From Amia ocellicauda (Eukaryota; Chordata; Actinopteri; Amiiformes; Amiidae), in NCBI RefSeq assembly GCF_036373705.1, contig NC_089863.1:9531357-9595356 (forward strand): DNA of 64,000 nt. The letters are read 5' to 3'. The notes below the pieces were generated by a model, which was not told where the DNA came from, made no database searches, and saw only the letters and a program-made list of their open reading frames with translations. The translations under genes were made by a program, and so were the position numbers. Of this stretch, positions 1 through 63,094 are shown piece after piece. How positions within the stretch are numbered: position 1 is the first letter of the stretch; each line of letters begins with the position of its first letter.

Positions 1-471
1 CTGTGTGTGTTGGCTGTGCTGGCGATCGGCCCCGTCCAGAGCCAGCCCTGCATCAACCGAGTACCTATAGGTCGATACAATACATTCATCAGGAGGCACG
101 TACCATCAGGCTTCCCCAAGACCAACAACATACAGCGATGGAGAAGCTTCTTAATTTCCAGGGGACTCTGCGGCCGAGTCCCAACCCAGACCTTCATTGA
201 CTCGTCTCGGGCGAACGTCGACAACGTTTGCAGGGCAGGAGGCAGGAGATTCTCGCAGAACAACCAGGGGAACCTGTGTGTGAGCGCTAACATGTTCACA
301 GTGTACAGCGTGCAGAGCAGCAACATACGCAGGAGGTGTAGTGTCACTAGAGTCAGTCGTACCCAGAGCTTCATCACGCTGGCCTGCGACAACATCGACA
401 ACCTCTGCCGGCCCGACCACTTCCAGACCACCAACAACCGGCCCAATGCAGCGAACGGACGCTGCCAGTGA
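1..471 (+). CDS. RNase A-superfamily protein, gene A (5' partial)
   Basis: Secreted ribonuclease of the RNase A superfamily. The window opens inside the signal peptide, so the start codon, intron and promoter lie outside; the frame begins at base 1 and ends at a TGA at 469-471. The mature part shows the RNase A landmarks in order: helix-1 histidine in FIRRHV (His12 equivalent), CGRVPTQTFI where RNase A has the CK..NTF motif, eight cysteines, and CRPDHF carrying the His119 equivalent. It differs from copies B and C by one residue visible here, GPVQSQ instead of GPGQSQ in the signal peptide. Poly(A) signal AATAAA lies at 724-729. Family assignment is from recognised motifs and spacing; substrate and role (digestive, antimicrobial or angiogenin-like) cannot be told from sequence. 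Confidence 0.88.
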   Translation: MCVLAVLAIGPVQSQPCINRVPIGRYNTFIRRHVPSGFPKTNNIQRWRSFLISRGLCGRVPTQTFIDSSRANVDNVCRAGGRRFSQNNQGNLCVSANMFTVYSVQSSNIRRRCSVTRVSRTQSFITLACDNIDNLCRPDHFQTTNNRPNAANGRCQ

Positions 472-8119: not shown

Positions 8120-8286
8120 TGTGTGATAGAGATTGTGTTGAGTTGTGAAATTCACACTGAGTCCTTACTGGCAGTGTGAGCTCAGAGGGGCAGTATATAA
8201 GCACACAGACCCTCAGTGCTGCACTCACACTCGACCGCTTCAGACCAGACCCACCGCCAGCGAACTCTCTCTGCGTTTCTGTCCAG
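8120..8286 (+). promoter_or_regulatory. Gene B promoter and untranslated exon 1
   Basis: TATATAA at 8194-8200 with a conserved upstream block (TGAAATTCACACTGAGTCC). Transcription probably starts about 25-30 bp downstream, and exon 1 ends CTGTCCAG at 8286. The donor reads GTCAAG (C at +3), whereas D, E, F and G have GTGAAG. The block is conserved before every RNase copy visible. Confidence 0.75.
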
Positions 8287-8523
8287 GTCAAGTGTCTCCA
8301 TTAGAACATGTATTTAATCTCTGTTAGAACATGGATTTCTCTCTCTCTGTCTGTCATTCTGTCTCTCTCTCTCTGTATGGCTCTCTGAGTGTGTTAAAGT
8401 ACACTTCACAGGCACAGTAACCCTCTCTCTCACCATCTCTCCTTCTCCCTGTCTGTCTCTTTCTCTCCATCCCTGTCCATCCCTCCCTGTCTCACTCTCT
8501 CTGTCTTGTCTCCCCAGGTGAAG

Positions 8524-9009
8524 ATGTTGATGTCAGTGCTGTGTGTGTTGGCTGTGCTGGCGATCGGCCCTGGCCAGAGCCAGCCCTGCATCAACCGAGT
8601 ACCTATAGGTCGATACAATACATTCATCAGGAGGCACGTACCATCAGGCTTCCCCAAGACCAACAACATACAGCGATGGAGAAGCTTCTTAATTTCCAGG
8701 GGACTCTGCGGCCGAGTCCCAACCCAGACCTTCATTGACTCGTCTCGGGCGAACGTCGACAACGTTTGCAGGGCAGGAGGCAGGAGATTCTCGCAGAACA
8801 ACCAGGGGAACCTGTGTGTGAGCGCTAACATGTTCACAGTGTACAGCGTGCAGAGCAGCAACATACGCAGGAGGTGTAGTGTCACTAGAGTCAGTCGTAC
8901 CCAGAGCTTCATCACGCTGGCCTGCGACAACATCGACAACCTCTGCCGGCCCGACCACTTCCAGACCACCAACAACCGGCCCAATGCAGCGAACGGACGC
9001 TGCCAGTGA
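8524..9009 (+). CDS. RNase A-superfamily protein, gene B
   Basis: Secreted ribonuclease-family protein of 161 residues. The ATG at 8524 is chosen because the splice acceptor CCCCAG ends at 8517, so the apparent upstream Met at 8506 is intronic. Residues 1 to about 20 (MLMSVLCVLAVLAIGPGQSQ) form a signal peptide. Landmarks: His12 equivalent in FIRRHV, CGRVPTQTFI in place of CK..NTF, VDNVC (Cys58), NLC, RRRC (Cys95), LAC (Cys110) and CRPDHF (His119). Cys26, Cys65 and Cys84 are absent. Extra cysteines occur near the mature N-terminus, before the His119 motif, and at the C-terminus. The protein is strongly arginine-rich. Gene structure: exon 1 to 8286, intron 8287-8517, poly(A) signal 9262-9267. 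The translated product is identical to gene C. Catalytic competence is uncertain without Lys41. Confidence 0.9.
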   Translation: MLMSVLCVLAVLAIGPGQSQPCINRVPIGRYNTFIRRHVPSGFPKTNNIQRWRSFLISRGLCGRVPTQTFIDSSRANVDNVCRAGGRRFSQNNQGNLCVSANMFTVYSVQSSNIRRRCSVTRVSRTQSFITLACDNIDNLCRPDHFQTTNNRPNAANGRCQ

Positions 9010-9300: not shown

Positions 9301-10898
9301 GTTGTGTAACAGAGGACTGGGCTGTATAGCACACAGGGCCTGGGGGGGCACTAGAGGGCCGATTTAGTTTCAATCCAGTGGCAGTTGTTGGCCACTGCTC
9401 CCGTGAGTTCCTGTTCTTGTCGTTTGTCGTATTGATCAAATGTTCAATACCTCTCTCAGTCTCTCTCTCCCTCGCTACCTCTATTTTTCTGTATGTAATG
9501 ATGAATTTAAAACTAACAAGATACTTTGTCTGCATGCGACACTACTTTTGGCATGATATAATATTGGATATATAATTTTTATGGCAGTATGCAGGTTACA
9601 GTTTTTCAAGTCAATGTGAATGAAACTGTGGTCCACATGACCAACACCATAACCGAAATGAGCAGAAAAGGATACATTTCTGCAAAACAGCTAAACACAA
9701 CTCTCTACACAAGACACAAACATCAATTAGGTAAGTCTTGTCAAACAAAATTAGAACATGTGTTCAGAGTCCGTAACTCACACTCCCACAAGTGTGAATC
9801 TCTACTGCACATGTGCAAATCCTCATTGCTCAATTGTTCAATCAGCCATCAGCCCATAATCACAACCCCATGGTGGCCAAGGAAGAGTCAAACACTGAAC
9901 AGGAGGCGGCCATAGATACAGTGTCTTCAAACAACTCAGTCTGTTTGAGGGAGATCCAGACTACAAATATACAAGAACATCAAATATCTCACAATGTACA
10001 GAGTGTCAGTCTGGCAGCTGCTGACCAGGTCTTGAATCGACACCAGTTAAGGATGAAACGGCTGTACAGGTACCTGTGACAGGAGCAGTGGCAGAGTGAA
10101 GGAGATCGGGTTCCAGTCTGTGCAGGTCAGGGCTCGTCACAGTAATGCATTTCCATACACTGTTTAGATGCAGACAGTTACAATGGCTACCCATGTTCAT
10201 GTTGTGTTTCTCTTGAGGCACACGTGTTGCCACATGAATTCATACACGTGGATGAAGCGATTACATGTTTTGCTGTTGAGTGAAATTCTTTCTGCTTTGG
10301 TCTTCATGATCTTCATGAGTCACTCAGAGAACATGAGTGCAGCTCATGTTGGGGTGAAATGTTTACGGACCATTAACGCTTATTTTACAAGCAAGCAGAG
10401 GACGACAAAGAGAGCAGTACAGGGCTGACCATGTCATATTGATGCTCATGGTTGGTGTGTATTGTGCCATTGTGAAGTGGCTGATGGAAATAATTTCTCA
10501 TTAGATGACAAATTATACTGTTTTGATGGACTGATTTGATTTTGTGACGTGTATTTGCTGTTTTGAGAGTCTGCGTGCATTTTGTAAAGGATTTGTGTCA
10601 TTTTGGCCAAACGTGTTTCAGTTTGGAGCCGGTGCTCATTGTTTTGAAATGTTTGGAGAAATGTGCTCAAGCAATAGACAAAGAGTAAGATTATGAGATC
10701 GCTGCCCCCTTGGAATTGAATGAAATTGCAACGGAAAATGTAGTCTTGGAATACCATAACTTTCATCAGTACTGGACTTTACATAATGCTACCTCCCTCT
10801 GTCTTCCTATTTCTCACCCTCTCTCCATCTCCCTCTCAAATTCAAATGGTGGTTTCTCATCACAACCACTTGAAGCTTTGCCGAAGCAAGTACATACA
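9301..10898. other. RNase downstream flank (unit 2), no gene recognised
   Basis: Duplicate of the unit 1 flank. Short ORFs are shared only through duplication. Confidence 0.5.
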
Positions 10899-17077: not shown

Positions 17078-17563
17078 ATGTTGATGTCAGTGCTGTGTGT
17101 GTTGGCTGTGCTGGCGATCGGCCCTGGCCAGAGCCAGCCCTGCATCAACCGAGTACCTATAGGTCGATACAATACATTCATCAGGAGGCACGTACCATCA
17201 GGCTTCCCCAAGACCAACAACATACAGCGATGGAGAAGCTTCTTAATTTCCAGGGGACTCTGCGGCCGAGTCCCAACCCAGACCTTCATTGACTCGTCTC
17301 GGGCGAACGTCGACAACGTTTGCAGGGCAGGAGGCAGGAGATTCTCGCAGAACAACCAGGGGAACCTGTGTGTGAGCGCTAACATGTTCACAGTGTACAG
17401 CGTGCAGAGCAGCAACATACGCAGGAGGTGTAGTGTCACTAGAGTCAGTCGTACCCAGAGCTTCATCACGCTGGCCTGCGACAACATCGACAACCTCTGC
17501 CGGCCCGACCACTTCCAGACCACCAACAACCGGCCCAATGCAGCGAACGGACGCTGCCAGTGA
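17078..17563 (+). CDS. RNase A-superfamily protein, gene C
   Basis: Encodes a 161-residue protein identical to gene B: signal peptide, helix-1 His (FIRRHV), CGRVPTQTFI, eight cysteines in the altered pattern, and CRPDHF. The start at 17,078 follows the acceptor AG at 17,070-17,071; intron 16,841-17,071. Poly(A) signal 17,815-17,820. It is the first gene of the longer third unit, and its 3'UTR lacks one C in a C-run compared with A and B. Protein identity between B and C, together with near-identical non-coding flanks, points to very recent duplication or gene conversion and does not by itself indicate purifying selection. Confidence 0.9.
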   Translation: MLMSVLCVLAVLAIGPGQSQPCINRVPIGRYNTFIRRHVPSGFPKTNNIQRWRSFLISRGLCGRVPTQTFIDSSRANVDNVCRAGGRRFSQNNQGNLCVSANMFTVYSVQSSNIRRRCSVTRVSRTQSFITLACDNIDNLCRPDHFQTTNNRPNAANGRCQ

Positions 17564-23164: not shown

Positions 23165-24290
23165 TCAGGCCGACAGCATGACAGCAAGTAAGTGCAGAGC
23201 AATGCTGAACTCTCCTCCTCTGTCCCAGCAGCGCCCCTGTGTGTCTCTCAGGCTGTGAGAGGCTCTAACAGGACTGACATTTTCTCTGGGTCTGTCATGT
23301 GTGAGAATTGTGGGAGGGAAATTGTGTGTCCACCTCTCCTGTCTCACAGTGACCGCAGCGCCGGTCCTCTCTGTGTCCACCTCTCCTGTCTCACAGTGAC
23401 CGCAGCGCCGGTCCTCTCTGTGTCCACCTCTCCTGTCTCACAGTGACCGCAGCGCCGGTCCTCTCTGTGTCCACCTCTCCTGTCTCACAGTGACCGCAGC
23501 GCCGGTCCTCTCTGTGTCCACCTCTCCTGTCTCACAGTGACCGCAGCGCCGGTCCTCTCTGTGTCCACCTCTCCTGTCTCACAGTGACCGCAGCGCCGGT
23601 CCTCTCTGTGTCCACCTCTCCTGTCTCACAGTGACCGCAGCGCCGGTCCTCTCTGTGTCCACCTCTCCTGTCCACCAGATGTGTCTCTGCTTCATATCTC
23701 TGACAGTGGAGAGATACTCTGCTGGGTGTATTCTCTCTTTGCAAGGTTGTTTTGTAATTTAATTTCTTTGCCCCAATGTTCCAGAGAGGAGTTCTTGATG
23801 TGTTCTGCAGTTTGTCTGACTCTGATTGGAGGCTGGTTAGCACTGCTGAGCTGAAGCTGCTTAGTGTTAGTGGGGTGAGTGCAGTGAGCTTCAGGGCCAG
23901 CTGGCTGAGGGGACTCTTTTCTGGGCTGAGCTCTTGGGTTGGCAGGACCTTGTGCTGGAGCAGGTCTGGGTCACTGTTCTTCAGATGTGTCCAGATTCTG
24001 ACCTGCATGCCTGCTTTGGGCTTTTCTGTTGTACTTGTGATCTTCTTTTGTACAGTTTAGCTTGCAGGGTTTCCATTGGGTGTTGATCCAATTTCCTGTA
24101 GTCCTGTTGACTGACTGGGCCCCATACCTCACTCACATACAGCTCGATGGGCTGGATAACACAGTCTATTATTTTCAACCTGATTTTGACAGGTATACTA
24201 TTCTGTGTAGCTTCCGTTATATTGTGTTAAAAGCTCTTTTTGCTTCTCCTTTTCATACATTCACTGCCACGTTAACGCTCACTGACGAAC
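23165..24290 (-). pseudogene. Degraded LINE C-terminal fragment
   Basis: Minus-strand frames match the C-terminal part of the LINE at 30,735-34,625: VIQPIELYVSEVWGPVSQQD, METLQAKLYK, LSPEKSPLSQLALKLTAL and a CGHCETGEVDTER zinc-knuckle piece. Stops and frameshifts abound. In units 1 and 2 only the last about 40 bp survive. Confidence 0.75.
23327..23680. repeat. 47-bp minisatellite within the LINE fragment
   Basis: Seven full copies and a partial eighth start every 47 bp at 23,327, 23,374, 23,421, 23,468, 23,515, 23,562, 23,609 and 23,656, virtually identical. The unit derives from LINE sequence encoding the CGHCETGEV zinc knuckle. Confidence 0.95.
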
Positions 24291-28349: not shown

Positions 28350-29562
28350 TACACTCACCTAAAGCATTATTAGGAACACCTGTTCAATTTCTCATTAATG
28401 CAATTATCTAACCAACCAATCACATGGCAGTTGCTTCAATGCATTTAGGGTTGTGGTCCTGGTCAAGACAATCTCCTGAACTCCAAACTGAATGTCTGAA
28501 TGGGAAAGAAAGGTGATTTAAGCAAGTTTGAGCGTGGCATGGTTGTTGGTGCCAGACGGGCCGGTCTGAGTATTTCACAATCTGCTCAGTTACTGGGATT
28601 TTCACGCACAACCATTTCTAGGGTTTACAAAGAATGGTGTGAAAAGGGAAAAACATCCAGTATGCGGCAGTCCTGTGGGCGAAAATGCCTTGTTTATGCT
28701 AGAGGTCAGAGGAGAATGGGCCGACTGATTCAAGCTGATAGAAGAGCAACTTTGACTGAAATAACCACTCGAGGTATGCAGCAAAGCATTTGTGAAGCCA
28801 CAACACGTTCAACCTTGAGGCGGATGGGCTACAACAGCAGAAGACCCCAGGTACCACTCATCTCCACTACAAATAGGAAAAAGAGGCTACAATTTGCACA
28901 AGCTCAGCAAAATTGGACAGTTGAAGACTGGAAAAATGTTGCCTGGTCTGATGAGTCTCGATTTCTGTTGAGACATTCAGATGGTAGAGTCAGAATTTGG
29001 CGTAAACAGAATGAGAACATGGATCCATCATGCCTTGTTACCACTGTGCAGGCTGGTGGTGGTGGTGTAATGGTGTGGGGGATGTTTTCTTGGCACACTT
29101 TAGGCCCCTTAGTGCCAATTGGGCATCGTTTAAATGCCACGGCCTACCTGAGCATTGTTTCTGACCATGTCCATCCCTTTATGACCACCATGTACCCATC
29201 CTCTGATGGCTACTTCCAGCAGGATAATGCACCATGTCACAAAGGTCGAATCATTTCAAATTGGTTTCTTGAACATGACAATGAGTTCACTGTACTAAAC
29301 TGGCCCCCACAGTCACCAGATCTCAACCCAATAGAGCATCTTTGGGATGTGGTGGAACGGGAGCTTCGTGCCCTGGATGTGCATCCCACAAATCTCCATC
29401 AACTGCAAGATGCCATCCTATCAATATGGGCCAACATTTGTAAAGAATGCTTTCAGCACCTTGTTGAATCAATGCCACGTAGAATTAAGGCAGTTCTGAA
29501 GGCGAAAGGGGGTCAAACACAGTATTAGTATGGTGTTCCTAATAATCCTTTAGGTGAGTGTA
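28350..29562 (+). mobile_element. Intruder-type (DD36E) Tc1/mariner transposon
   Basis: TA at 28,350-28,351 and 29,561-29,562 flanks inverted ends CACTCACCTAAAG and TTTAGGTGAGTG, with GGAACACC and GGTGTTCC inside them. The element proper is 28,352-29,560 (1,209 bp). The equivalent sites at 7540 and 16,078 are uninterrupted, so the insertion is private to this unit. Confidence 0.92.
28500..29528 (+). CDS. Intruder/DD36E transposase
   Basis: Open frame of 342 codons on the + strand; the first codon at 28,500 is ATG. It would act in the nucleus to bind the TIRs and cut and paste the element. The N-terminal half has paired helix-turn-helix regions (LSISQSAQLLGFSRTTISRV near residues 25-45). The catalytic triad is visible: Asp in AWSDES, Asp in YFQQDNAP and Glu in DLNPIEHLWD. 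The last two are separated by 36 residues, against 34 in Tc1 or Sleeping Beauty. The stretch EITTRGMQQ looks a few residues short compared with relatives as I remember them. The frame is intact, so activity is possible but unproven. Confidence 0.85.
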   Translation: MGKKGDLSKFERGMVVGARRAGLSISQSAQLLGFSRTTISRVYKEWCEKGKTSSMRQSCGRKCLVYARGQRRMGRLIQADRRATLTEITTRGMQQSICEATTRSTLRRMGYNSRRPQVPLISTTNRKKRLQFAQAQQNWTVEDWKNVAWSDESRFLLRHSDGRVRIWRKQNENMDPSCLVTTVQAGGGGVMVWGMFSWHTLGPLVPIGHRLNATAYLSIVSDHVHPFMTTMYPSSDGYFQQDNAPCHKGRIISNWFLEHDNEFTVLNWPPQSPDLNPIEHLWDVVERELRALDVHPTNLHQLQDAILSIWANICKECFQHLVESMPRRIKAVLKAKGGQTQY

Positions 29563-30191: not shown

Positions 30192-30677
30192 TCACTGGCA
30201 GCGTCCATTCGCTGCATTGGGCCGGTTGTTGGTGGTCTGGAAGTGGTCGGGCCGGCAGAGGTTGTTGATGTTGTCGCAGGCCAGCGTGATGAAGCTCTGG
30301 GTACGACTGACTCTAGTGACACTACACCTCCTGCGTATGTTGCTGCTCCGCACGCTGTACACTGTGAACATGTTAGCGCTCACACACAGGTTCCCCTGGT
30401 TGTTCTGCGAGAATCTCCTGCCTCCTGCCCTGCAAACGTTGTCGACGTTCGCCCGAGACGAGTCAATGAAGGTCTGGGTTGGGACTCGGCCACAGAGTCC
30501 CCTGGAAATTAAGAAGCGTCTCCATCGCTGTATGTTGTTGGTCTTGGGCATGCCTGACGGAACGTGCCTGGTGAGGAATGTATTGTATCGACCTATAGAT
30601 ACTCGGTTGACGCAGGGCTGGCTCTGGCCGGGGCCGATCGCCAGCACAGCCAACACACACAGCACTGACATCAACAT
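30192..30677 (-). CDS. RNase A-superfamily protein, gene D
   Basis: 161-residue secreted RNase-family protein on the minus strand. The ATG is at 30,677, just downstream of the acceptor (intron ends at 30,684 on this strand). It keeps the signal peptide, helix-1 His (TRHV), CGRVPTQTFI, all eight cysteines and CRPDHF. It differs from B and C by about ten residues (VNRVS, NTFLTRHVPSGM, WRRF, VRSS, NINNL among them). The intron, 30,684-34,824, is 4.1 kb against about 0.2 kb in other copies because a LINE sits in it, antisense to the gene. Splice sites and promoter look intact (donor GTGAAG), so the gene may be expressed. Confidence 0.88.
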   Translation of the reverse strand: MLMSVLCVLAVLAIGPGQSQPCVNRVSIGRYNTFLTRHVPSGMPKTNNIQRWRRFLISRGLCGRVPTQTFIDSSRANVDNVCRAGGRRFSQNNQGNLCVSANMFTVYSVRSSNIRRRCSVTRVSRTQSFITLACDNINNLCRPDHFQTTNNRPNAANGRCQ

Positions 30678-30736: not shown

Positions 30737-33700
30737 TCACTGAAAGTATGAGCCCCACCGAGCTGGGGGAGATCAAGCAGCTGCTCAGCCTCATCTGCTC
30801 CAGACTGCTGAGCTGAGCCAGAGCACTCGGGTAGGGACGGACAACCCCACTTGTAAATAATTAAAAATAAATACCTGTGTACATACAATGTAACCATACT
30901 TTACATAAAACTAATAATTATTATATGTTAGCTAAAATGAGCTCATTTACAGTCAGCTGCTGGAACATTCAGGGTCTGAACTCCTCGGCTTTCGGGCTAA
31001 AGAGCACAGACCCTGAATTCATTAAAAGCATTAAGAAATTAGATATCATAGTTCTGTTGGAGACATGGTGCCGTGCAGAGGTGCCCACACACTGCCCCCT
31101 GGGCTACAGGGAGGTTATTGTGCCCTCAATTAAACTGAGCACAGTGCGGCGTGGCAGGGACTCTGGGGGGATCATAGTGTGGTACAAAGAGGAGCTGGCC
31201 AACCACATCAGCCCAGTCAAACAGGGCCCAACGCACATATGGCTTCAAATTAAGAAGGGAATAGCCCAGTGTGAGAACTATATATACCTGTGTGCAGCGT
31301 ATACCCCCCCCTCTGAATCCCCCTATTACAATGAGTAATTTTTTAACACCCTCCACACAGAGATCAGCCATTTCCAGGCCCAGGGGAATGTGCTGCTCTG
31401 TGGGGACTTCAATGCCCGGACAGGCACCGAGCCCGACTGCATCGACACACAGGGAAACAGCCACGTGTTCGGCCAGGCCCCTCTGTACCTCACCCCCACC
31501 ACAACCCAGAGGAACAACCCCGACGGGGCGGTGAACAAGAACGGGAGAGAGTTAGTGCATCTCTGCCAACCCATGGGCCTGTACATCCTTAATGGCAGGA
31601 TCAGAGGGGACTCTTTAGGGAGGTTCACGTATTGCTCAGCTCTTGGGACTAGTGTAGTCGACTACGCCCTCACTGACATGAACCCCTCCTTCATCAGTGC
31701 ATTCACTGTCAGGCAGCAAACCCCCCGTCAGACCACAACCAAATCACAGTGTTCCTGAAAAGAAGAAGTCAGGCCAGCAACACACAGACACAGCCCAGTA
31801 AGCTGTACAACCTTAATCAAACATACAGATGGGCTCCAAACAGCACAGAGGAATTTAACAAAGCAATCAGTTCTACAGAAATAACAGACATCATCAACAC
31901 TTTCCTCAGCTCACAGTACCAGCCTGACGTGACAGGACTAAAGCTGGCCATAAATGATATCAATCAAATATATCAAATTGCAGCCACAATGGCAAATCTT
32001 AAAAAGACAAAGAAAAAGACCAACCAGAATCACACACACACACAGACATGGTTTGATGATGAGTGTAAATCAATACGAACAAATTTAAGGCACCTATCCA
32101 ATCAAAAACATCATCAACCACAAGACACAGAACTATGCCAGCAGTACTGTGAGACCCTAAAACACTACAAACACACCCTTAAAAATAAAAAACAGAAACA
32201 CACAAACAAAACACTGACAGACATATAGAAATCTGTTGACCAAAACCAGTTCTGGGAAATGTGGAACAATTTAAATTCAACAAACCAACAAGAATTGGCA
32301 ATACAAAACAGAACCATTTGGAAAAAATACTTTGAAAACCTTTATAAAGATATCCAACAAAATGATCTGACACACAAACAAATTGAAACCAGGGAAAAAC
32401 TGAAATTACTCGAACAATCAATTAAAGATAATCAAAACCCAATTGACCCTCCAATCACCCTACAGGAACTATCTAAAAAGCTACAGGCACTTCCACTCAG
32501 AAAAGCCTGCGGCCCGGACAGCATCAGCACTGAGATGCTCAAACACAGCAGCGCACAACTGCAGGAGGCTGTGCTTAAATTGTTCAACATGGTCCTCAGT
32601 ACTGGTTACTTCCCTGACATCTGGAAGCAGGGGCTGATCACCCCAATCTATAAGAGTGGAGACAAATTCGACCCTAACAACTACCGGGGCATCTGTGTGA
32701 GCAGTCACCTGGGGAAGGTGTTCTGCAGTATCATCAACGCCCGGATACTGGCCTTCCTTACCGAGCACAGTGTCCTGAGTAAGAGTCAGATTGGCTTCCT
32801 CCCAAATCACCGCACTACAGATCATATTTACACCCTGCACACCCTCATAGACAAACACGTCCACCAAAAAAGTAAAGGCAAAATCTTTGCCTGTTTCATT
32901 GATTTCAAAAAGGCATTCGACTCCATTTGGCACGAGGGACTTTATTACAGAATTCTTCAAAGCGGTGTAGGGGGTAAAGTCTATGATATTATAAAATCAA
33001 TGTACACCGAAAACAAATGTGCAGTAAAAATTGGCAACAAAAGAACAGAATTCTTCACTCAGGGGTGGGGAGTGAGGCAGGGCTGCAGTCTGAGCCCAAC
33101 ACTGTTCATCATCTACATCAAGCAGTCTGATGCCCCTGGCCTCACCCTAAATGACACAGAAGTCAAATTCCTGCTCTATGCAGATGACCTAGTCTTGCTG
33201 TCGCCCACAGAGCAAGGGCTTCAGCAAAACCTGGCACTACTAGAGCAGTACTGTCAGTCCTGGGCCCTGGCAGTAAACATGAAGAAGACAAAGATCATGA
33301 TTTTCCAAAAAAAAGGCCAGACCTCAGGGAAACAAATACCACTTCACGCTAGATAACACTACCCTAGAACACACCTCACACTACACCTACCTGGGCCTGA
33401 CTATTAGTGCGTCAGGGGGCTTTAACCTGGCAGTGAAGACGCTCAAAGACAAAGCAAGAAGAGCATTCTATGCAATCAGAAGAAGATTCTATAAAATTAC
33501 TATTCCAGTCAAAATCTGGCTCAAACTAATTGACAGTGTGATCCAGCCCATTGCGCTGTATGGTAGTGAAGTATGGGGTCCACTCAGTCAACAGGACTAC
33601 ACTAGGTGGGACAAACATCCAATAGAGACCCTGCATGCTGAACTCTATAAAAACATACTGCAGGTGCACAGGAACACACCAAACCACGCATGCAGGGCAG

Positions 33701-34625
33701 AATTAGGCCGCTTCCCAACCCTCATTAATATAAAGAAAAGAGCACTGAAATTCTGGATGCACCTGAAGAAAAGTGAGTCAGACTCACTCCAGTACAAGAG
33801 AGCCAAGAGCTCAGCCCTGAAAAGAGTCCCCTGAGTCAGCTGGCCCTGAAGCTCACGGCACTGACCCCCGCTAATACTGCGAACAGAGACCAGCTTCAGG
33901 TCAGCACTGCTTACCTGCCCCCAATTAGAGTCAACCAAATCATAAAGATAACCAAAACCTCCTATCTGGAACATAGGAACAATGAAACCAAATCCCAAAG
34001 TCAACTGGATTGCTATCGGGCCCTAAACAGAGAATACACCCTGGCAGAGTCTCTCTTCACTGTCAGAGATACGAAGCAGAGACGGATCCTGACCAAGTAC
34101 AGGCTCAGTGACCACAGCCTGGCCATAGAGACGGGCCGACACAGGCAGAGCTGGCTGCCCAGAGAGGAGCGGCGCTGTGGTCACTGCGAGACAGGAGAGG
34201 TCGAGACAGAGATGCACTTCCTCCTCCACTGCAATAAATATGCCAAATTAAGGGACACATTCTTTAATAAATTCATAAATATTACAAAATCATTCTCTGA
34301 ATTGATAAATGAAAAAAAAATAGCTATCCTCATGGGGGAGGGACACACAGCCCCCCTGGCTGCCCAATATGTAGCTGCCTGCCACAGCCTGAGGGGCTCA
34401 CTGTGAAAACATACATGAGCACCAGCTGTAACCTGATAACTATAAATAAAGTAAATGTACATGTCTATTAAGATTTTATTTATAAATTATAATGTTACTG
34501 TTTCATTTTTTATTTATTTTTTCTTACCTTTTATTATTTTTCAATGTATGTATATAATATCAACTGCTTTGGCAACACTACGAAACTGTTTGCCATGCCA
34601 ATAAAGCACCCTTGAATTGAAAATT
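30735..34625 (+). mobile_element. Near-complete ORF2 LINE in gene D intron
   Basis: About 3.9-kb non-LTR retrotransposon between two halves of a GA microsatellite. The 5' edge holds a possible ORF1 end (MSPTELGEIKQLLSLI). The long ORF2 runs 30,916-34,406: endonuclease, reverse transcriptase, then a C-terminal CGHCETGEVETEMHFLLHC zinc knuckle. The 3' end is CAATAAAGCACCC followed by TTGAATTGAAATTGAG. I did not assign a clade with confidence. Confidence 0.85.
30916..34406 (+). pseudogene. LINE ORF2 (endonuclease-reverse transcriptase), broken
   Basis: The endonuclease domain starts near 30,934 (FTVSCWNIQGLNS) with LLCGDFNARTG at about 31,390. The reverse transcriptase at 32,600-33,350 shows LITPIYKSGDK, FIDFKKAFDSIWHEGL, GVRQGCSLSPTLF and the catalytic LYADDLVLLSPT. 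Damage: in-frame stops at 31,336 and 32,226, frameshifts in the C-run near 31,722 and the A-run near 33,306, and another near 33,805. It cannot make a full protein. It is antisense to the RNase gene that hosts it. Confidence 0.85.
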
Positions 34626-34824
34626 GAGAGAGAGAGAGACAGAGGGAAGGAGAGATGGAGAGAGAGGGTTACTGTGCATGTGAAGTGTGCTTTAACAAAC
34701 TCAGAGAGGAAGAGAGGGAAACAGAAAGTCACACAGAGAGAGAAAGAGACAGAATGACAGACAGAGAGCAAGCAATCCATGTTTTAACAGAGATAAGATA
34801 CAAGCTCAGATGGAGACACTTCAC

Positions 34825-34970
34825 CTGGAGAGAAACGCAGAGAGAGTTCGCTGGCGGTGGGTCTGGTCTGAAGCGGTCGAGTGTGAGTGCAGCACTGAGG
34901 GTCTGTGTGCTTATATACTGCCCCTCTGAGCTCAGCCAGTAAGGACTGACCGCAAATTTCACAACTCAAC
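34825..34970 (-). promoter_or_regulatory. Gene D promoter and untranslated exon 1
   Basis: Minus-strand TATATAA at 34,911-34,917. Exon 1 ends at 34,825 with CTCCAG and donor GTGAAG. The sequence is closely similar to the promoter blocks of B, C, F and G. Confidence 0.72.
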
Positions 34971-37470: not shown

Positions 37471-37678
37471 GCTGAGGCCGAATGAACTATTGTGTTTTCT
37501 TTCATTACCTACAATGAGTTTATATTCTCTTACTTTAGTTCAAGTATTTTTACTTGGGCTACTTTTGTTTCCACAACTTTTTTTGCCTGCTATCGAATTC
37601 AGTTTTGTGTGTGTTGTGTGTACACTTGAGCACACTCTCTAACACAGTGTACACACAGTACAGTAGCACGCTGTTGCA

Positions 37679-37726
37679 AACATCAACAACCTCTGCCTGC
37701 CCGACCACTTCCAGTGCACCAACCAT
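37679..37726 (+). pseudogene. RNase gene crumb
   Basis: About 48 bp encode NINNLCLPDHFQCTN, matching the RNase region around the His119 equivalent (NINNLCRPDHFQTTN in gene D). No other RNase sequence adjoins it; it abuts the inverted MITE. Confidence 0.7.
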
Positions 37727-37727
37727 A

Positions 37728-37792
37728 TACAGAGACCACTTAACACTGAGTCCTGAACTGGGAGTGGTCTCTTAATTTTTTCCAGAGCTGTA
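37728..37792. mobile_element. Truncated MITE (inverted block)
   Basis: Right end CCAGAGCTGTA is intact; the left end is lost at the junction with the RNase crumb. Confidence 0.7.
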
Positions 37793-43638: not shown

Positions 43639-43745
43639 GTGAAGTGTCTCCATTAGAACATGTATGATATATCTGTAAGAGCATGTATTTCTCTCTGTCT
43701 GTCATTCTGTCTCTTTCTCTCTCTGTATGGCTTTCTGTTTCCCAT

Positions 43746-43978
43746 ACCTTCATTGACTCGTCTCGGGTGAATGTCGTCAACGTTTGCAGGGCAGGAGGCA
43801 GGAGATACTCGCAGAACAATCAGAGGAACCTGTGTGTGAGCACTAGTGTGTCACTAGTGTCATTCGTGCCCAGAGCTTCATCACGCTGGCCTGTGACAAC
43901 ATCGACAACCTCTGCCGGCCCGACCACTTCCAGACCACCAACCACCGGCCCAATGGGGCGAACGGACGCTGCCAGTGA
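43746..43978 (+). pseudogene. RNase pseudogene E
   Basis: The intron runs straight into the middle of the coding exon (TTTCTGTTTCCCAT then ACCTTCATTGAC), removing the acceptor, start codon, signal peptide, helix-1 His and first cysteines. A second internal deletion after NLCVS (about 43,845) removes the Cys95 region and shifts frame. The CRPDHF region and stop (43,976-43,978) remain in another frame. AATAAA at 44,221-44,226. Confidence 0.9.
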
Positions 43979-53289: not shown

Positions 53290-53775
53290 TCACGGACAGG
53301 GTGGGTTTGCCGGATTGGGCCGGTTCCTGGTGCCATTGAAGTGGACGGGACGGCAGAGGTTGCTGATGTTTTCACAGGCCAGCGTGATGAAGTTCTGGGT
53401 ACGAATGACTCTACTGACACGACACCCATTCTGTGTGATGCTGCTCCGCACGCTGTACACCATGAACCTGCTAGAGCTCACACAAAAATTCCCCCGGTTG
53501 TTCTGCGAGTATCTCCAGCCTCCTGCCCCGCAAACGTTGTCGACGACCCCCGGAGTCGAGTCGATGAAGGTCTGGGTTGGGACTCGGCCGCAGAGTCCAC
53601 TGGCAGTTAAGAAGCGTCTCCATTGCTGTATGTTGACGCTCCTGGGGAAGTTGTTTGGTACGTGCCTGTCGATGAATGTCTGGTATCGAACATAAGGTAA
53701 TCGTTTCTGGCAGGGCAGGCCCTTGCTGGGGCCGATCGCCAGCACAGCCAACACACACAGGACTGACATCAACAT
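53290..53775 (-). CDS. RNase A-superfamily protein, gene F (diverged)
   Basis: 161-residue protein on the minus strand. ATG at 53,775, acceptor just upstream, intron 53,782-53,995, exon 1 from 53,996. The signal peptide start is conserved, but the mature N-terminus differs (LPCQKRLPYVRYQTF). Helix-1 His in IDRHV, CGRVPTQTFI, VDNVC, NFC, NGC, LAC, and CRPVHF (closest of all copies to the PVHFD motif of RNase A), with the C-terminal cysteine in PPCP. Eight cysteines match the other copies. It diverges from B throughout yet keeps frame and key residues, which suggests selection for function. Promoter intact. Confidence 0.88.
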   Translation of the reverse strand: MLMSVLCVLAVLAIGPSKGLPCQKRLPYVRYQTFIDRHVPNNFPRSVNIQQWRRFLTASGLCGRVPTQTFIDSTPGVVDNVCGAGGWRYSQNNRGNFCVSSSRFMVYSVRSSITQNGCRVSRVIRTQNFITLACENISNLCRPVHFNGTRNRPNPANPPCP

Positions 53776-62611: not shown

Positions 62612-63094
62612 TCACTGGCAGGGTGGGTTCGCCGGGTTGGGCTGGTTGGTGGTGCTCTGCAAGTGGTCGGGCCGGCAGTGGTTGTCAATGTTGTCGCAGC
62701 CCAGTGTGATGTAGCTCTGGATATGATTGACACTGGTGACAAGACACACATTGAGCCTGTTGCTGCTCCGTACGGTGTACACTGGGAACATCTTAGTGCT
62801 CACACACAGGTTCTCATTGGTGTTCTCCGAGTATCTCCTTCCTCCTCCCCTGCAAACGTTGTTGACGTCCTCCCGAGACGAGGCAATGAAGGTCTGGGTT
62901 GGGAATCGGCCACAGAGTCGTCTGGAAACTAAGAAGCGTTTCCATTCCTGTTTGTTTGTGTTCCTGGGAAAGTCCAGTACGTGCCTGTCGATGAATGTAT
63001 TGTATTGACCTATAGGTACTCGGTTGACGCAGGGCTGGCTCTGGCCGGGGCCGATCGCCAGCACAGCCAACACACACAGCACTGACATCAACAT
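62612..63094 (-). CDS. RNase A-superfamily protein, gene G (diverged)
   Basis: 160-residue minus-strand protein; ATG at 63,094 just after the acceptor (intron 63,101-63,302). Signal peptide identical to B for its first 20 residues. The mature protein has IDRHV (His12), CGRFPTQTFI, VNNVC, NLC, NVC, LGC, then CRPDHL in which the residue after the His119 equivalent is Leu where the others have Phe, and a C-terminal PPCQ. Eight cysteines are conserved. The region between helix 1 and CGRF is one residue shorter than in B. Together with F it is the most diverged copy, with intact promoter, splice sites and frame. Confidence 0.88.
   Translation of the reverse strand: MLMSVLCVLAVLAIGPGQSQPCVNRVPIGQYNTFIDRHVLDFPRNTNKQEWKRFLVSRRLCGRFPTQTFIASSREDVNNVCRGGGRRYSENTNENLCVSTKMFPVYTVRSSNRLNVCLVTSVNHIQSYITLGCDNIDNHCRPDHLQSTTNQPNPANPPCQ

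Follow-up and report, generated by a model that had tools for sequence, protein, structure and literature searches.

The window analysed here, a stretch of 64,000 nucleotides (C20:9531357-9595356 of the 988-Mb assembly of Amia ocellicauda), lies inside an RNase cluster that spans about 9.49-9.62 Mb on C20 and comprises 10 intact copies, which encode 8 distinct mature proteins. Six intact copies (A-D, F and G) are found within the window (Table 1), while one copy running into N, fragment E, a small remnant and one further fragment are counted outside the ten.

Table 1. Coordinates of the RNase gene copies, of the signals and residues of copy B and of two relatives (positions in the window, unless a locus label is given).
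Feature	Position	Strand	Remark
Copy A	1..471	+	truncated at its 5′ end by the window edge; full-length in the genome
Copy B, coding exon	8524..9009	+	exact ORF; 161-aa preprotein
Copy B, TATA-like box	8194..8200	+	inside 32-base element
Copy B, putative 5′-UTR intron	8287..8517	+	conserved GT and AG, by eye
Copy B, Arg37 (Gln11 site) and His38 (His12 equivalent)	8632..8637	+	invariant, 10/10 intact copies
Copy B, Trp52 at the Cys26 column	8677..8679	+	invariant, 10/10 intact copies
Copy B, CGRVPTQTFI (residues 62-71)	8707..8736	+	from alignments
Copy B, Arg64, likely Lys41 homologue	8713-8715	+	from alignments including paralogues
Copy B, His145 (His119 equivalent), within CRPDHF	8956..8958	+	from alignment
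Copy C	17078..17563	+	coding sequence identical to B
Copy D	30192..30677	-	protein 95% identical
Small 3′ coding-end remnant	37667..37753	+	E 4.7e-5
Copy E, pseudogene	43668..43978	+	promoter present; coding exon without 5′ part, frame broken
Copy F	53290..53775	-	protein 66% identical
Copy G	62612..63094	-	protein 69% identical; Phe for Val65
C24 161-aa gene	L010 4612-5097	-	LCRRNMNSF; same eight-Cys layout
Second C24 relative	L009 4453-5037	-	stop-interrupted; 46% identical to the first

The 32-base element around the TATA-like box occurs six times within the window, once upstream of each of copies B, C, D, E, F and G. Copies B, C, D, F and G keep this TATA-like element, a short 5′ noncoding exon and an intron (exon and intron recognised by eye), with an acceptor AG 6 bases upstream of the ATG and, in each case, an AATAAA at most 400 bases downstream. 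For copy D, the promoter element is at 34893-34924 and is separated from the coding exon by about 4 kb of LINE-like sequence with LINE-like ORFs; these frames (30925-31338 and 32259-33356, plus strand, typed by eye, in the region 30800-34900) fall within the putative 5′ intron of D and run antisense to the gene. The first 20 residues of copy B form a putative signal peptide, recognised by eye from the hydrophobic N terminus, and proteins of the copy B type are probably secreted. That copy B is a chance ORF is ruled out by its Pfam match, by the PDB profile match and by the matches of the fold models (see below). Long antisense open frames of 167-182 aa overlap the RNase exons (8430-8933, minus strand, and the corresponding positions in C and D); they were dropped as candidates for the true gene, as the homology and the gene signals sit on the sense frame, and they are probably explained by codon usage.

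Copies A, B and C are carried by near-identical tandem units (window positions 1-28400, spacing 8538-8554 bases, about 100% identity) that either were duplicated very recently or result from the assembly. Segments of this unit are found again at 24-28 kb and, in inverted orientation, near 37.7-41.3 kb. A minisatellite lies at 23325-23672 (47-base unit, 7.4 copies, 100% match). At 28500-29528, on the plus strand, there is an intact frame of 342 aa for a Tc1-type transposase (typed by eye), a close relative of which adjoins the C24b gene (L033).

Judged by its sequence, the protein encoded at 8524-9009 is a member of the RNase A superfamily. Copy B matches PF00074 with an E value of 7.1e-5 and 23.6 bits, against a curated cutoff of 23.1 that is passed by four of the five window proteins scanned, copy F falling below it (22.3). 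A profile of four copies, compared with the PDB, matches the zebrafish RNase 2vq9 (E 1.4e-6), and 12 solved relatives were found; NCBIfam, a prokaryote library, returned nothing for the two cluster proteins tried. AlphaFold models (AF2 input alignments of four of the 8 distinct mature proteins) retrieve the RNase A family in all of the matches listed (50 per search), the top-ranked Foldseek match among those listed being an angiogenin. The residues beside His38 and His145 have pLDDT values under 50 in both models, or lie at their edge. The fold prediction for the cluster proteins is a modest one. As judged by residues, the set of Cys that forms the core disulfides (26-84, 40-95 and 58-110) is incomplete in the cluster copies: the Cys26 column has Trp, the Cys84 column has a gap (canonical-only alignment) or Val (with paralogues), and in the alignments the partner of Cys40 is displaced and Cys at 58 and 110 are kept.

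The earlier note had reported CGR(V/F)PTQTFI in every copy, and this motif is indeed present in all six intact frames of the window. Throughout the genome the 10 intact copies have CGR(V/F)P(T/N)QTFI, with PNQTF in a single copy outside the window, and none of them has the CKxxNTF signature with Lys41. CGR, QTFI, both catalytic His, the eight Cys, Arg37 and Trp52 are invariant in these ten copies, and Val65 and Thr67 are each found in nine. Nine of the 11 motif columns are invariant, compared with 60 of 141 overall (permutation value of 0.008 at the place of the motif); with four sequences, 10 of 11 are invariant, which gives 0.003 at the motif place and 0.15 for any place. The loss of the catalytic Lys41 and the change of Asn44 to Gln (Gln68 of copy B), together with the retention of both His, had likewise been proposed from the sequence, and they are confirmed: no Lys occupies the Lys41 position in the inspected alignments, whether made with canonical RNases only or with paralogues. 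His119 is outside the HMMER matches of the cluster proteins and is placed by MAFFT once paralogues are included.

The further proposal that the positive residue is an Arg at a shifted position stands for one kind of alignment and falls for the other. When only canonical RNases are aligned (7 fragments of solved relatives, compared with 12 found), Val65 (Phe in copy G) is opposite Lys41 in all three MAFFT modes and with hhalign, and MAFFT sets Arg64 opposite Cys40. When paralogues are included, Arg64 is instead opposite Lys41, with a one-residue insertion next to it, in three of three and two of three MAFFT modes; both sets of alignments, and the trees, cover five of the 8 distinct cluster proteins and the three intact paralogues, with 7 fragments of solved relatives in the first set and 6 in the second. 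A paralogue-only profile also puts Arg64 of copy B at Lys41, whereas a profile of canonical RNases plus paralogues gives Val65. HMMER alignments differ among themselves. The paralogues have Arg at position 41 and point to Arg64 as the counterpart of Lys41, with one extra residue inserted directly after it; from these alignments, we regard this assignment as likely. A hidden Lys41 was considered and rejected, as there is none in the MAFFT alignments and Lys41 faces no residue in the HMMER alignment to 3zbv. Replacement of Lys41 by Arg as a side effect of Lys depletion was also rejected, since C24b is rich in Lys and yet has Arg there.

Relatives elsewhere in the genome, the list of which is a lower bound, place the cluster in a wider context. 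The C24 161-aa protein is 27-36% identical to the cluster copies and scores 32.2 against PF00074. A second intact C24 paralogue, of 252 aa, has a DRDMNTF motif, and a C4 protein of 268 aa has GRPINTF; both carry an additional N-terminal domain. The RNase part of the C4 protein is devoid of Cys and below the Pfam cutoff (16.1 vs 23.1), and its nearest solved matches are angiogenins (E 1.1e-4). All three intact paralogues (two on C24, one on C4) keep His12 and His119 and combine Lys or Arg at position 11 with Trp at 26 and Arg at 41. Common to the cluster and paralogue lineages are the change of Gln11 to Lys/Arg, that of Cys26 to Trp and the loss of Cys84. The genome additionally contains frames of the canonical type on C20 (3.47, 3.50 and 3.83 Mb). 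These have Gln11 and Cys26 and read CKPTNMF, CKELNTF and CKEINTF; two of these three matches are flagged with one internal stop, and one has NMF in place of NTF. The tree separates noncanonical from canonical-type RNases with support of 98/94, and the split is retained (95/93) without the canonical frames of the Amia ocellicauda genome, both values being subject to a long-branch warning. On this sequence evidence, the altered centre is a property of a whole branch, and not the quirk of one tandem cluster, with canonical-type genes alongside.

Comparison with well-studied proteins indicates how far this branch departs from the canonical type. Zebrafish ZF-1, ZF-3 and ZF-5 and the angiogenins have the superfamily fold and His12/His119 in common with the window copies; low activity is reported for ZF-1a and angiogenin (PMC2582337). 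Zebrafish RNases and angiogenins have Gln11, Cys26, Cys40-Lys41, Asn44 and Cys84, residues that are all missing from the aligned positions of the window copies, which possess four other Cys and a C-terminal tail longer than in ZF-1a and ZF-3e. For nine bream RNases, and for zebrafish RNases compared with them, CKxxNTF and six Cys are reported (PMC5852591). Our search of the literature found no report of such a branch among its best-ranked matches, subscription journals being mostly outside its coverage.

The earlier note had predicted lower RNA cleavage from known enzymology, and published mutants support this. RNase A K41R and K41A are reported to have 0.1% and 0.01%, respectively, of wild-type activity on tRNA (PMC2443152), and angiogenin K40R keeps 6.3% of native activity and is likened to RNase A K41R, K40Q being reduced at least 2000-fold (PMC5296752). 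With 0.1% in one and 6.3% in the other, these sources differ on how severe an Arg at this position is. In zebrafish RNases, the pocket equivalents of His12, Val43, Asn44, Thr45 and Phe120 are described as universally conserved (PMC2582337); in the cluster copies, the Val43 position is Thr or Asn and the Asn44 position is Gln. As the third catalytic position would be Arg (or Val/Phe in the other register), cleavage of ordinary RNA is expected, by analogy with the published mutants, to be low or absent.

The same residues have nevertheless to be weighed as parts of a rebuilt, working RNase, in which Arg64 would replace Lys41 and Arg37 would add charge at the phosphate site, allowing slow cleavage or cleavage of a special substrate. 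We consider this somewhat unlikely. It is favoured by the invariance of both His, Arg37 and Arg64 in the ten intact copies and by the three intact C24/C4 relatives, which likewise combine Lys/Arg at 11 with Arg at 41. Frog onconase also has a Lys beside its first catalytic His, as the C20 cluster has Arg37 beside His38, and its C-terminal disulfide would be another likeness to the window copies; however, it carries CKDKNTF, with Lys, where the window copies have their own motif. The 6.3% left in angiogenin K40R (PMC5296752) would agree with a rebuilt enzyme, as would the description of angiogenin as very weakly active and yet cleaving tRNA (PMC11647505), but the fall of RNase A K41R to 0.1% in one study (PMC2443152) does not, and neither do the one-residue insertion after Arg64 in the C20 cluster (or Val/Phe at the site) and Gln in place of Asn44; moreover, Arg64 and Arg37 cannot be placed by the models. 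We think it unlikely that position 11 has taken over from Lys41 the charge that binds phosphate, with RNA or another phosphodiester still the substrate, a case in which Lys41 would be dispensable in nature.

Whether these proteins are maintained at all bears on another reading, a decaying family of drifting pseudogenes in which the motif change would mean function lost without replacement. Broken copies and fragments are present and omega is about 1, both of which favour decay: maximum-likelihood estimates are 0.96 (four sequences) and 1.02 (eight), with log-likelihoods about equal to those for omega of 1, so positive selection is not demonstrated. For the mature part, dN/dS between pairs of copies amounts to 0.62 for B-D, 2.02 (1.11-4.61) for B-F, 1.36 for B-G, 1.42 for D-F, 1.58 for D-G and 0.99 for F-G, the interval excluding 1 in only one of the six pairs (B-F). 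On the other hand, all 10 intact copies are free of stops and keep all eight Cys, although "intact" was the criterion by which they were chosen and their open frames are thus partly by choice; the five copies examined for gene signals (B, C, D, F and G) have retained them, and the C24 161-aa relative, distant as it is, has the same eight Cys. In a neutral simulation on four copies (5000 runs), frames without a stop arose in 1.2% of runs, all eight Cys were kept in 0.04% and the two together in none, which bears out the selected retention proposed earlier and renders decay very improbable. The two His were retained in 16% of runs, and their conservation within the window is thus weak evidence; judged on the alignments, their retention in the distant C24/C4 paralogues is the stronger evidence.

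The mature parts also differ more than their surroundings, the signal peptide and most of the flanks being better conserved among the copies. B and F have 67/327 nonsynonymous differences, vs 9/247 (p 7e-10) and 31/315 (p 2e-4) in the flanks, and the counts are 59/326 vs 22/315 for B-G and 74/326 vs 26/327 for F-G (all rounded). Copy D and the copy located at 9524 kb are exceptions, with 5′ flanks only 68% alike to that of B. The copies at 9610 and 9617 kb have a C-terminal half identical to A, B and C and a different N-terminal half; the shared halves point to conversion or to an exchange in the recent past, and gene conversion may have homogenised both flanks and C-terminal halves. The proteins are thus maintained while their mature part changes fast; the contrast with the flanks would stem either from positive selection or from conversion of the flanks.

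We favour, with a probability of about 0.5, the reading that the cluster belongs to a cationic, noncanonical branch of RNase A proteins that have little or no RNase activity left and that would most likely act in host defence, as binders or membrane disruptors. The probably secreted proteins would retain the RNase A fold and both catalytic His; with Arg (or Val/Phe) at the third catalytic site they would cut ordinary RNA barely or not at all, and would bind anionic extracellular targets (microbial surface or nucleic acid) and damage membranes, as do RNases 3 and 7 and angiogenin-4. The mature proteins of B, D, F and G (four of the 8 distinct ones) contain 14-21 Arg and only 1-3 Lys, with pI values of 9.2-11.6 and charges of +7 to +18, copy G (pI 9.2) being much less basic. 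This charge, the probable secretion, the expansion, the fast change and the RNase-independent killing in relatives make host defence the best guess, while the retention of both His argues against a pure binder, which needs neither. The antibacterial action of Ang4 is stated to be independent of RNase activity (PMC9207454), and RNases 3 and 7 are stated to kill bacteria without need for it (PMC6313885). RNase 3 (ECP), RNase 7 and angiogenin-4 are secreted, have the RNase A fold and resemble the window copies by predicted fold and secretion, but they are described as canonical, with a catalytic triad that the window copies lack.

An angiogenin-like or fertility-type ligand, neither RNase nor antimicrobial and with a role like that of the noncanonical mammalian RNases 9-12, is quite unlikely. 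The top Foldseek rank of an angiogenin among the matches listed fits such a ligand, as do the RNases 9-12, which lack the motif and showed no RNase activity and whose deletion is reported to lower some epididymal small RNAs (PMC11647505). Tandem expansion and a mature part that changes fast, however, fit defence genes better; expansion and fast change have been linked to defence in mouse eosinophil RNases (review PMC6313885). The mammalian RNases 9-13 are likewise described as superfamily members without the catalytic signature and are predicted to be inactive (PMC11647505 and PMC6313885), but RNases 9-12 are described as retaining three conserved disulfides (PMC11647505), whereas the window copies are without the Cys26-Cys84 pair.

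Lys41 is taken to belong to the triad that defines one of the most thoroughly studied enzymes. Here, a natural branch has kept both His and dropped Lys41, with other near-universal sites changed jointly, in a genome that also has genes of the canonical type; mammals, too, have RNase A proteins that are noncanonical. It provides a natural experiment both on what the triad requires and on how host-defence RNases depart from catalysis. If the branch is active, the textbook mechanism requires a footnote; if it is inactive, it apparently parallels the noncanonical RNases of mammals.

A minor observation concerns the long relatives. An N-terminal domain of about 100 aa is shared by three RNase A-like proteins, one canonical-type and two noncanonical, encoded at L029 1768-2574 (plus strand), L030 2228-2986 (minus strand) and by a minus-strand frame of L035. 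For this domain of the long relatives, Pfam gave no family above its curated cutoff. Its pattern (CA-L, C-L-LW and CxC, at 23-26% identity) is one that we take to be reminiscent of syncollin, and in the C4 protein RSKR directly precedes the RNase part.
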